A model generated the notes under the pieces. It saw only the letters and a program-made list of their open reading frames with translations, ran no database searches and was not told the origin of the DNA. A stretch of 64,000 nucleotides of DNA from the NCBI RefSeq assembly GCF_900112255.1, contig NZ_FOLE01000001.1:372001-436000 (forward strand), written 5' to 3'. The position numbers and the translations under genes were made by a program. Source of the DNA: Flexibacter flexilis DSM 6793 (GTDB taxonomy: Bacteria > Bacteroidota > Bacteroidia > Cytophagales > Flexibacteraceae). Positions 1,838 to 4,471 of the stretch are shown here, piece after piece. Position 1 is the stretch's first letter. Every line of letters starts with the position of its first letter.

Positions 1838-2446
1838 ATGGAAAATCAAGACCACTATAAAGCACTTATCGACTATTTCAAACAAATCACGACTTTAGAT
1901 GAAAATGAAGAACAATTGGTTCGTGAGTTATTTGTTTATAATAGCTATAACCGTAAAGAATTCTTATTGAAAGAGGGCGAAATATGCCGTCAATTTAATT
2001 TTATTATCAGAGGTTGTATGCGTATGTATTTGGTGGATGATAAAGCCAATATGCATATTTTACAATTTGCTGCCGAAAATTGGATAATGGTAGATGCGCT
2101 GAGTTTTCGTGAAAAAAACGCATCAAGGCTCTATATTGATACGCTTGAAAAAACGGAATTGCTCTACATCACACCCGAAAACCTCAAATTGCTGTACCAT
2201 AAAGCTCCTAAATTTAACTGTATTATTCGGGAACTTTTGGAACGTCATGTGGTAGCTCTTCAAAAGAGATTGTTACAATACATGAGTTCATCGGGCGAGG
2301 AACGTTACTTGTCTTTTTTGAAAACCTATTCTCAATTTTCAAATAGACTCCCCCAAACGCAAATTGCCGCTTATTTGGGTATAACCCCCGAACATTTAAG
2401 CAAAATCCGAAACGATATCGCAAAATCCAAAAAATTTACTTCTTAA
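1838..2446 (+). CDS. Crp/Fnr family transcriptional regulator
   Basis: 202 residues with an N-terminal cyclic-nucleotide-binding-like beta-roll (about 25-125, including LLKEGEICRQFNFIIRGCMR) and a C-terminal winged helix (about 150-198). The recognition helix region is LPQTQIAAYLGITPEHLSKIR. The roll lacks the complete E. coli CRP cAMP-binding signature, and no Fnr-type N-terminal cysteine cluster is present, so the ligand is unknown. Regulators of this type are common in Bacteroidota beside small redox operons. The two promoters just downstream both carry a CRP-spaced dyad at about -41.5 (see findings), which makes this protein the obvious candidate activator. Its stop codon lies inside the first dyad. 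Confidence 0.9.
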   Translation: MENQDHYKALIDYFKQITTLDENEEQLVRELFVYNSYNRKEFLLKEGEICRQFNFIIRGCMRMYLVDDKANMHILQFAAENWIMVDALSFREKNASRLYIDTLEKTELLYITPENLKLLYHKAPKFNCIIRELLERHVVALQKRLLQYMSSSGEERYLSFLKTYSQFSNRLPQTQIAAYLGITPEHLSKIRNDIAKSKKFTS

Positions 2447-2487
2447 GATAGATTAAGGGTGAGTCATTTTTGAGGGCTCTACCTTTG
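2442..2487 (+). promoter_or_regulatory. Dyad operator plus Bacteroidota -7 box upstream of the quinone reductase gene
   Basis: CTTAA-GATAGA-TTAAG (2442-2457, centre 2449.5) is followed by TACCTTTG at 2480-2487, a match to TAnnTTTG. The dyad centre is 30.5 bp before the box, which puts it at about -41.5 to -43. No clear -33 TTTG is present, as expected for activator-dependent transcription. Confidence 0.6.
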
Positions 2488-2512
2488 CATGGTCGATTTA
2501 AAGTAAAAGGAC

Positions 2513-3085
2513 ATGCAAAAAGTATTAATCGTCTCAGGACACCCGAATTTAGAAAATTCGCACGCCAACAAAACCGTTTTAGAACAAACCTTACAGCTAA
2601 TTCCTGATGCAGAAGTTAGCCGATTGGATTTGCTTTATTCCGATTTTAAAATTGATGTAAAAGCAGAACAAGAAAAGCTCATCAATGCGGATATTGTCAT
2701 TTGGCAATTTCCTTTCTATTGGTATGCCTTACCTGCGCTAATGAAAAAATATTTGGATGATGTTTATGTTTTCGGATTTGCTCACGGCGTTGGTGGCGAC
2801 AAATTGAAAGGCAAAACGCTAATCCTATCATTTACGACAGGAGCACCAGAAGAGTTGTATGATTATGGGAAGGCCATGAATTACCCAATTGATGATTTTT
2901 TACCTTCTCTTATTCAGGTTGCCAAGCTTTGTCAGATGGAAATGCAAGAACCCATTTACTCGATGGGAATGCAATATATTCCTAATGTTTATCCCATTGA
3001 AGCATTGGAAACGCTTAAAGCAAAATCCAAATCCCATGCAGAGAAATTAGCAACTCTTGTGCACAAAATCTATTCCTTAAGATAG
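2513..3085 (+). CDS. NAD(P)H-dependent oxidoreductase, flavodoxin-like fold
   Basis: 190 residues of the flavodoxin_2 family (NQO1/MdaB/KefF-like), which are FMN- or FAD-dependent quinone reductases acting as soluble dimers. Visible features are the N-terminal strand VLIVSGHPN followed by the phosphate-binding loop, the WQFPFYWYALPALMKKYLDDV segment with conserved aromatic residues, and LILSFTTGAPEE. It probably reduces quinones or nitro/azo-type electrophiles by two electrons. It lies 66 bp after the Crp/Fnr gene with its own promoter, and a second copy of that promoter type follows it. The set looks like a small electrophile or redox-stress regulon. Confidence 0.87.
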   Translation: MQKVLIVSGHPNLENSHANKTVLEQTLQLIPDAEVSRLDLLYSDFKIDVKAEQEKLINADIVIWQFPFYWYALPALMKKYLDDVYVFGFAHGVGGDKLKGKTLILSFTTGAPEELYDYGKAMNYPIDDFLPSLIQVAKLCQMEMQEPIYSMGMQYIPNVYPIEALETLKAKSKSHAEKLATLVHKIYSLR

Positions 3086-3121
3086 ATTAAGGGTAGGGCA
3101 TTCTCGCATACTTTACCTTTG
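3075..3121 (+). promoter_or_regulatory. Second dyad operator plus -7 box, upstream of the isomerase-like gene
   Basis: CCTTAA-GATAGA-TTAAGG (3075-3092, centre 3083.5), then TACCTTTG at 3114-3121. The centre-to-box distance is again exactly 30.5 bp. The dyad and its GATAGA core match the copy at 2442, while the bases between dyad and box differ. Confidence 0.62.
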
Positions 3122-3167: not shown

Positions 3168-3428
3168 ATGAAAAGAATTATTTTAAACATTCGTTGCGAA
3201 CTTGATAAAGTTCCGAACATTGACGTGTTACTTCCACAAGAATTTGCAAGAGGTGAAGAGTTGAAGCAAGAAGGAATAATGGAGCATCTGTTTGTAACAG
3301 AAGGAAGAATGGGTGCTGTGCTTGTTTTCAAAGATGTAGATGAAGCGAAAGCAAAAGAAATCGCCGCTACATTTCCTCTCTTTAAATATTTTGATACTCA
3401 ATATATCACAGTAGAGAAATATTATTAA
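3168..3428 (+). CDS. Muconolactone isomerase-like small protein
   Basis: 86 residues with a ferredoxin-like dimeric alpha/beta barrel pattern. It contains RGEELKQEGIMEHLFVTEGR and a C-terminal FPLFKYFDTQYITVEKYY, which resembles the LPLFPYMDIEV region of muconolactone delta-isomerase. Members outside catabolic operons have no assigned reaction, and no other aromatic-degradation gene lies nearby. It shares the dyad/-7 promoter architecture of the preceding quinone reductase gene and is therefore probably co-regulated with it. Confidence 0.6.
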   Translation: MKRIILNIRCELDKVPNIDVLLPQEFARGEELKQEGIMEHLFVTEGRMGAVLVFKDVDEAKAKEIAATFPLFKYFDTQYITVEKYY

Positions 3429-3444
3429 TACCTAAACGCAAAAA

Positions 3445-3496
3445 AGACGGCTTACGCAGATAATGGCATAAAACAATAATCTGCGTAAGTTTTTTG
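3445..3496 (+). terminator. Terminator after the isomerase-like gene
   Basis: Perfect 11-bp stem CTTACGCAGAT/ATCTGCGTAAG (3451-3461 with 3479-3489), followed by TTTTTT. Confidence 0.85.
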
Positions 3497-3526: not shown

Positions 3527-4471
3527 ATGACAAAAATACCTAAAATAGCATTAGGAACGTGGTCTTGGGGTGCAGGATTTGCAGGAAGTGACCAAGTTTT
3601 TGGAAATAATTTAAGTGTTGAAGAATTACAGCCAGTATTCAAGACCGCCATCGAATCAGGATTAAATCTTTGGGACACCGCCTTAGTGTACGGAATGGGT
3701 TCTTCTGAAAAAGCATTGGGCGAATTTGTGAAACAATACCCTCGTGAAGAATTGATTTTATCCACCAAATTCACGCCTCAGTTGGCAAAAGAAGTAGAAA
3801 ATCCAATTGAAGAAATGCTTAATAGTAGTCTGGATAATCTCGGTACTGATTTTGTCGATTTCTATTGGATTCATAATCCCGTAGGAGCTCCTAACTGGGT
3901 TGCGGGGATGATACCTTTATTGAAAAGCGGAAAAATAAAACAAATAGGTGTTTCTAATCATAATCTGGCGCAGATTAAAGAAGCGAATGACATTTTAGCA
4001 ACAGAAGGTTTTAAAATTTCTGCCGTCCAAAACCATTATAGTTTATTATATCGTTTTTCTGAAGATACTGGTATTTTAGATTATTGTAACGAAAATGGTA
4101 TAATATTTTTCTCTTATATGGTATTGGAACAAGGGGCATTGTCAGGAAATTACAACACCCAAAATCCATTACCTGAAAACAGTGATAGAGGTAAAATCTA
4201 TAATAAAATTCTTCCACAGTTAGAAGAATTAATGAATGCCATACGCGAAATTGGTGATAGTAAAAACGCATCGGTTGCGCAAATTGTGATGGCTTGGGCT
4301 ATTGCCAAAAATACCTTACCAATTATCGGCGTTACTAAAATCAAACAAGTAGAGGACGCGGTTAAAGCAACCACTATTCTATTGTCTCAGGAAGAAATGG
4401 AACGAATTGAAATTTTGGCTGCGCAAGCTAACGTGGATACCAAAGCCTCTTGGGAAAAATTAATGAGTTAG
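3527..4471 (+). CDS. Aldo/keto reductase
   Basis: 314 residues forming a (beta/alpha)8 NADPH-dependent carbonyl reductase. The catalytic tetrad is visible as D50 (NLWDTALVYG), Y55, K81 (STKF) and H116 (WIHN). The C-terminal IIGVTKIKQVEDAVKA is the cofactor phosphate-binding stretch typical of the family. The substrate cannot be read from sequence. The gene follows the Crp/Fnr-quinone reductase-isomerase group but is separated from it by a terminator and lacks the dyad, so it may be regulated independently. Confidence 0.9.
   Translation: MTKIPKIALGTWSWGAGFAGSDQVFGNNLSVEELQPVFKTAIESGLNLWDTALVYGMGSSEKALGEFVKQYPREELILSTKFTPQLAKEVENPIEEMLNSSLDNLGTDFVDFYWIHNPVGAPNWVAGMIPLLKSGKIKQIGVSNHNLAQIKEANDILATEGFKISAVQNHYSLLYRFSEDTGILDYCNENGIIFFSYMVLEQGALSGNYNTQNPLPENSDRGKIYNKILPQLEELMNAIREIGDSKNASVAQIVMAWAIAKNTLPIIGVTKIKQVEDAVKATTILLSQEEMERIEILAAQANVDTKASWEKLMS

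Follow-up and report, generated by a model that had tools for sequence, protein, structure and literature searches.

Identical dyads at two promoters of Flexibacter flexilis as predicted class II operators of an adjacent Crp/Fnr-type regulator

Two promoters of Flexibacter flexilis DSM 6793 carry identical inverted repeats that very probably bind the Crp/Fnr-type protein encoded beside them, which would activate both downstream genes in the class II manner and whose residue 189 would help to determine the half-site sequence. The genes lie in a window of 64,000 nucleotides (positions 372001-436000 of contig 1; genome 4.25 Mb). From position 1838, the gene of the Crp/Fnr-type protein is followed by a KefF-like flavodoxin-fold oxidoreductase gene and by a small muconolactone-isomerase-like gene.

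For binding, dimer state, activation and signal we infer the following mechanism. The 1838-2446 protein would form a cAMP-independent Crp/Fnr-type dimer that binds CTTAA-N6-TTAAG at 2442-2457 and 3076-3091, both at about -42.5 from the predicted starts. Bound there, it would act in the class II manner and bring RNA polymerase to two promoters with a TAnnTTTG box and no -33 TTG. The KefF-like quinone reductase gene and the muconolactone-isomerase-like gene would thereby be activated on a signal that may be of redox or electrophile type. Operator 1 sits where the regulator's own gene ends, an arrangement shared with many relatives, and residue 189 would help to determine which third base the TTRA half-site has, with Lys or another non-Arg residue going with TTAA and Arg with TTGA.

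Results

Layout of the two-promoter unit

The features of the unit are as follows.

1838-2446, + strand: gene of the Crp/Fnr-family regulator, 202 aa; recognition helix TPEHLSKIR (residues 183-191), with Lys189 at the position of CRP Arg185
2442-2457, + strand: predicted operator 1, CTTAA-GATAGA-TTAAG, overlapping the regulator TAA stop (2444-2446)
2480-2487, + strand: predicted -7 box TACCTTTG of promoter 1, 30.5 bp from the operator 1 centre; box consensus from PMC9723704
2513-3085, + strand: target 1, gene of a KefF-like NAD(P)H:quinone/FMN oxidoreductase (Flavodoxin_2)
3076-3091 (6-bp arms 3075-3092), + strand: predicted operator 2, CTTAA-GATAGA-TTAAG, overlapping the reductase TAG stop (3083-3085)
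3114-3121, + strand: predicted -7 box TACCTTTG of promoter 2, 30.5 bp from the operator 2 centre
3168-3428, + strand: target 2, small muconolactone delta-isomerase-like protein (MIase, 86 aa)
3449-3491, + strand: terminator-like hairpin followed by a T run (-18.7 kcal/mol, z -5.0)

The terminator-like hairpin at 3449-3491 appears to close the two-promoter unit ahead of an aldo/keto reductase gene (3527-4471). We considered this gene as a third target and rejected it, as no dyad lies ahead of it and the hairpin precedes it. On the other side, a tautomerase-like gene (1308-1754) stands directly upstream of the regulator gene, with a strong terminator-like hairpin between them (1779-1810).

Sites, positions, adjacency to regulator genes, covariation and protein fold were established by computation. 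The sequence CTTAAGATAGATTAAG is present at 2442-2457 and 3076-3091, and the second copy extends to CCTTAA..TTAAGG (3075-3092). The dyad centres (2449.5 and 3083.5) both lie 30.5 bp from the first T of TACCTTTG, and each dyad overlaps the stop codon of the gene upstream; dyads, boxes and overlaps are where the first-pass annotation had put them. It had also set the dyads at about -41.5. In Flavobacterium psychrophilum the TAnnTTTG box was mapped to -12 to -5 (PMC9723704), and start sites predicted by counting from this mapping place the window dyads at -42.5, while the 29.5-bp spacing commoner among relatives gives -41.5. The window's own value, moved to -42.5, stays in the class II range.

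Throughout the 4.25-Mb genome, CTTAA-N6-TTAAG occurs at the two window sites only. Both copies stand 30.5 bp before a box, in contrast to the random occurrence without promoter bias that had been named as a refutation. Among 28 one-mismatch dyad sites examined in this genome, none had a consensus TAnnTTTG box at 29.5 or 30.5 bp; the nearest case was a single degenerate box, TCGGTTTG, at 29.5 bp. In this genome the regulon seems to comprise exactly two promoters, in line with the small regulon first proposed.

The regulator belongs to a widespread Crp/Fnr subfamily

Pfam scores of the 1838-2446 protein lie below the gathering thresholds (cNMP_binding, 25.1 bits against 27.5; HTH_Crp_2, 19.9 against 27), which are curation cut-offs and not a defining trait of the Crp/Fnr superfamily. 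Its AlphaFold2 model (pLDDT 92.7) has the predicted fold of that superfamily, with an N-terminal beta-barrel sensor domain, a long dimer helix and a C-terminal helix-turn-helix, and the top Foldseek matches are 3DN7 (nearest), FNR and then CRP. Because of this fold and the relationship to 3DN7, we assign the protein to Crp/Fnr despite the sub-threshold scores. The modelled chain stops at the recognition helix and is predicted to have no wing.

The cAMP contacts of CRP, Glu72, Arg82 and Ser83, are Asp, Ser and Arg in the window protein; among 147 relatives, 138 carry Asp at the Glu72 position and 100 carry Ser at the Arg82 position. With these contacts missing, cAMP is unlikely as the ligand and was rejected as a candidate, which bears out the earlier view that the protein has no clear cAMP site. 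The base-contact residues of CRP, Arg180, Glu181 and Arg185 (PMC12531629), align to Pro184, Glu185 and Lys189, a set that departs from that of CRP. The window protein has no Cys before residue 50, and an FNR-type N-terminal cysteine cluster is absent from it.

The regulator is a member of a large Crp/Fnr subfamily that is spread over Bacteroidota and has one solved structure, 3DN7. The first-pass annotation had proposed a new Crp/Fnr subtype. A subtype it is, though one far from peculiar to this genome: the subfamily is apparently widespread and uncharacterised, not a new kind of regulator.

The dyad keeps a fixed place behind Crp/Fnr genes and before the box

We searched 391 genomes of the order for CTTAA-N6-TTAAG followed by 20-24 bases and TAnnTTTG, and obtained 48 places. 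At spacings N21 and N22 (29.5 or 30.5 bp), a same-strand Crp/Fnr gene directly precedes 26 of 36 sites, against 0 of 12 at N20, N23 and N24. A control dyad of equal composition, CTAAT-N6-ATTAG, gave 15 places, none of them near a Crp/Fnr gene. Genome-wide uniqueness, the control dyad and the spacing controls rule out chance as the origin of the dyads. Matches with N24 spacing that fall between the gene of a conserved membrane protein and the gene following it (L149-L151, L168-L170) lack a nearby Crp/Fnr gene, and we treated them as unrelated. One CTTAA-type dyad-box site precedes an NDH-2-like gene (L144, position 4981) with no adjoining Crp/Fnr gene.

A protein search over Bacteroidota and near phyla supplied a second set, of 80 named loci. 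Pooling all sources gave 147 distinct regulators, some fetched via the pattern, with the 80 named loci independent of it. Around these regulators the centre-to-box distance peaks at 29.5 bp (27 cases) and 30.5 bp (20), with three or fewer at any other value; distant sites in the same loci give a weak signal at the same two distances (4 and 8). A downstream dyad accompanies 96 regulators, mostly within 40 bp of their own stop codon, and in 27 of the 96 it is centred exactly 3 bp past the gene end, the stop codon forming part of the left arm. Together, adjacency and spacing support the original reading of the dyads as putative operators of the adjacent Crp/Fnr protein in a class II place. In Flavobacterium limnosediminis (L248), two identical dyads CTTAATCCAGATTAAG stand behind one regulator, about 50 and 1091 bp past its gene and each 30.5 bp before TAACTTTG, a layout that parallels the window.

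A TTG in the -33 region was found in 0 of 43 family promoters whose box is correctly spaced. At class II promoters, the distribution of Crp motifs has its peak at -41.5 (PMC5957442). Counted from predicted starts, the family dyads lie within about 1 bp of this position and take the place of the upstream promoter element, a fixed position that argues for class II activation.

Many relatives add a second dyad further upstream. Around other regulators it is exactly 23 bp away in 34 cases; two more lie at 22 bp and one at 40 bp, with no other distance seen within 16-44 bp. A search for the tandem-dyad pattern returned 23 places in 195 genomes, some met before; in most of them the second dyad is complete and the box is spaced as expected. 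The fixed 23-bp step is seen at L063, L067, L153, L213 and about 30 further loci, and at L296-L318. Some tandem copies in large genomes (for example L297, L299, L311 and L315-L317) have no Crp/Fnr gene in the stretch examined, hinting at wider regulons in those genomes. We looked for a second dyad in the window promoters and found it absent; judged by position, these promoters would correspond to the proximal dyad alone.

Alternatively, the regulator might act as a repressor that occupies the promoter and is released by an inducer. Neighbouring regulators often repress detoxification genes of such a type, as in HxlR, MarR and TetR systems; the dyad sits right ahead of the box, at a place from which a bound protein could hinder polymerase, and a fixed place by the box is in itself compatible with repression too. 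We nevertheless regard repression as unlikely: a centre-to-box distance held at 29.5 or 30.5 bp across a phylum-wide set, promoters devoid of the -33 TTG and a second dyad placed exactly 23 bp further upstream are all more natural for activation.

Residue 189 covaries with the third base of the half-site

Regulators with Arg189 go with at least one TTGA half-site (26 to 1), whereas those with any other residue go with TTAA in both (2 to 67); the Fisher p of 5e-20 for this table treats related regulators as independent, with no correction for ancestry. The scan left A or G alone free of penalty at the third base, so other bases there would be under-counted. After the rule was proposed, a search for CTTGA-N6-TCAAG led to 30 loci being read, 20 of them directly behind a Crp/Fnr gene, and all 20 regulators, several of which are close relatives, carry Arg189. 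In the joint set, residue and base agree in 117 of 120 rows. The tree holds only 4 supported independent residue changes, of which on average 3.7 agree and none opposes; the sign test gives p 0.125, the lowest value that 4 changes allow, and the regulators share ancestry. The rule is thus strong as a pattern, not yet proven repeated co-evolution. Its main exception is L165, a distant member with Arg189, a TTAA/TTAA dyad (CTTAACAATTGTTAAG) and a different centre.

The same genome encodes a paralog, 55% identical (L063 4083-4694; G000:C2:480082-480693), with Arg at position 189. Its sites, CTTAAACTATGTCAAT and CTTGATGCTGTTCATT, are of the TTGA/TCAA type, and CTTGATGCTGTTCATT lies 30.5 bp before CAACTTTG. 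The two paralog dyads (L063 4690-4758) are 23 bp apart and precede an F420-NADP-type oxidoreductase gene.

With at least five further homologues of the regulator in this genome, a different Crp/Fnr paralog, or an unrelated regulator, might be what reads the window dyads. We consider this very improbable, since the best-matching paralog carries Arg189 and goes with sites of the TTGA type, the operator accompanies the local regulator gene in one species after another, and the genome contains just two sites.

Origin of the two promoters

The two window promoters have the same dyad, central hexamer, GGGT flank and TACCTTTG, and their 22-nt spacers between dyad and box match at 12 of 22 positions. 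The earlier note had taken the differing spacers as a sign that the shared parts are selected; the spacers have indeed diverged, but they are not unrelated, and GG(T) right after the proximal dyad, present in both promoters, recurs in many relatives. By sequence, the two promoters probably arose from one ancestor. That the dyads are mere copies of one duplicated promoter segment, symmetric without function, is scarcely credible despite these identities, because the same dyad, at equal spacing and with a different centre, recurs before unrelated genes behind Crp/Fnr genes in many genera, which argues that selection maintains it, wherever the second copy came from.

Targets and signal

Among 89 predicted first targets, Pfam matches included CMD/AhpD-like (15), SnoaL_2 (14), pirin (13), F420-NADP-type (13), NmrA (10), SDR (4) and DinB (4) families; a single protein can hit more than one family, and the choice of some downstream reading frames was automatic. 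Most of the targets appear to be enzymes that act in redox reactions or on quinones or aromatic compounds, which would fit a role in detoxification and is compatible with the sensing of quinones or electrophiles first proposed. Cys50 is present in 117 of 147 regulators, Cys60 in 107 and both in 90, a common though not universal pair that allows thiol sensing. A redox or electrophile signal is plausible, at best an even prospect, and the enzymatic diversity of targets across the clade makes a single signal uncertain.

Discussion

The preferred reading, that the regulator binds both dyads and activates both genes class II style, combines a Crp/Fnr protein with a class II arrangement, which is a known kind. 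Our literature search found no description of the operator, its embedded location or the residue rule; an earlier description, for example in surveys, is possible. Bacteroidota have many Crp/Fnr paralogs, for which few sites or signals are known. A large paralog group now gains a predicted operator with its position in the promoter, candidate targets and a specificity rule based on one residue, which can be tested with a natural paralog pair in one genome. A genome with two clean sites is also a simple place in which to seek the signal. We tentatively extend this picture to the phylum-wide clade of short, wingless Crp/Fnr proteins. These might be local redox- or electrophile-responsive activators with the operator at the end of their own gene and with paralog specificity set largely by one recognition-helix residue (Arg for TTGA, others for TTAA), many members binding as two dimers 23 bp apart.

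The window regulator shares its fold with E. coli FNR, and the recognition-helix Glu and Ser align. FNR sites have TTGA/TCAA half-sites, and its N-terminal cysteine cluster carries an Fe-S centre. Arg-type members of the clade carry TTGA-N6-TCAA, an FNR-like half-site, whereas the window regulator has Lys for the helix Arg, TTAA sites and no such cluster. E. coli CRP, in its class II mode, resembles the window system in the Crp fold and in an N6 dyad at about -41.5 to -42.5, but its Arg180 and Arg185 are replaced by Pro184 and Lys189, and its Glu72 and Arg82 by Asp and Ser.

The PrfA box of Listeria, tTAACanntGTtAa (PMC5359189), is, like the window dyads, a TTAA-N6-TTAA dyad. PrfA, a glutathione-responsive Crp/Fnr protein, belongs to another phylum and is not a close sequence relative, being absent from the protein matches; its ligand is not implied for the window regulator.

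The closest known protein is 3DN7, a cyclic nucleotide binding regulatory protein of Cytophaga hutchinsonii in the same subfamily (phmmer E 1.9e-32; top Foldseek match), for which our literature search found no paper mentioning the PDB entry. It differs in having Glu where the window regulator has Lys189 and in its target gene. Over the aligned stretch 3DN7 is identical to the regulator of locus L138. The gene of that regulator has its own dyad, CTTAAACCAGTTTAAG, which begins at the stop codon; TACTTTTG follows at 29.5 bp, and an AhpD-like gene lies downstream. The solved structure thereby gains a predicted DNA site and a predicted target.
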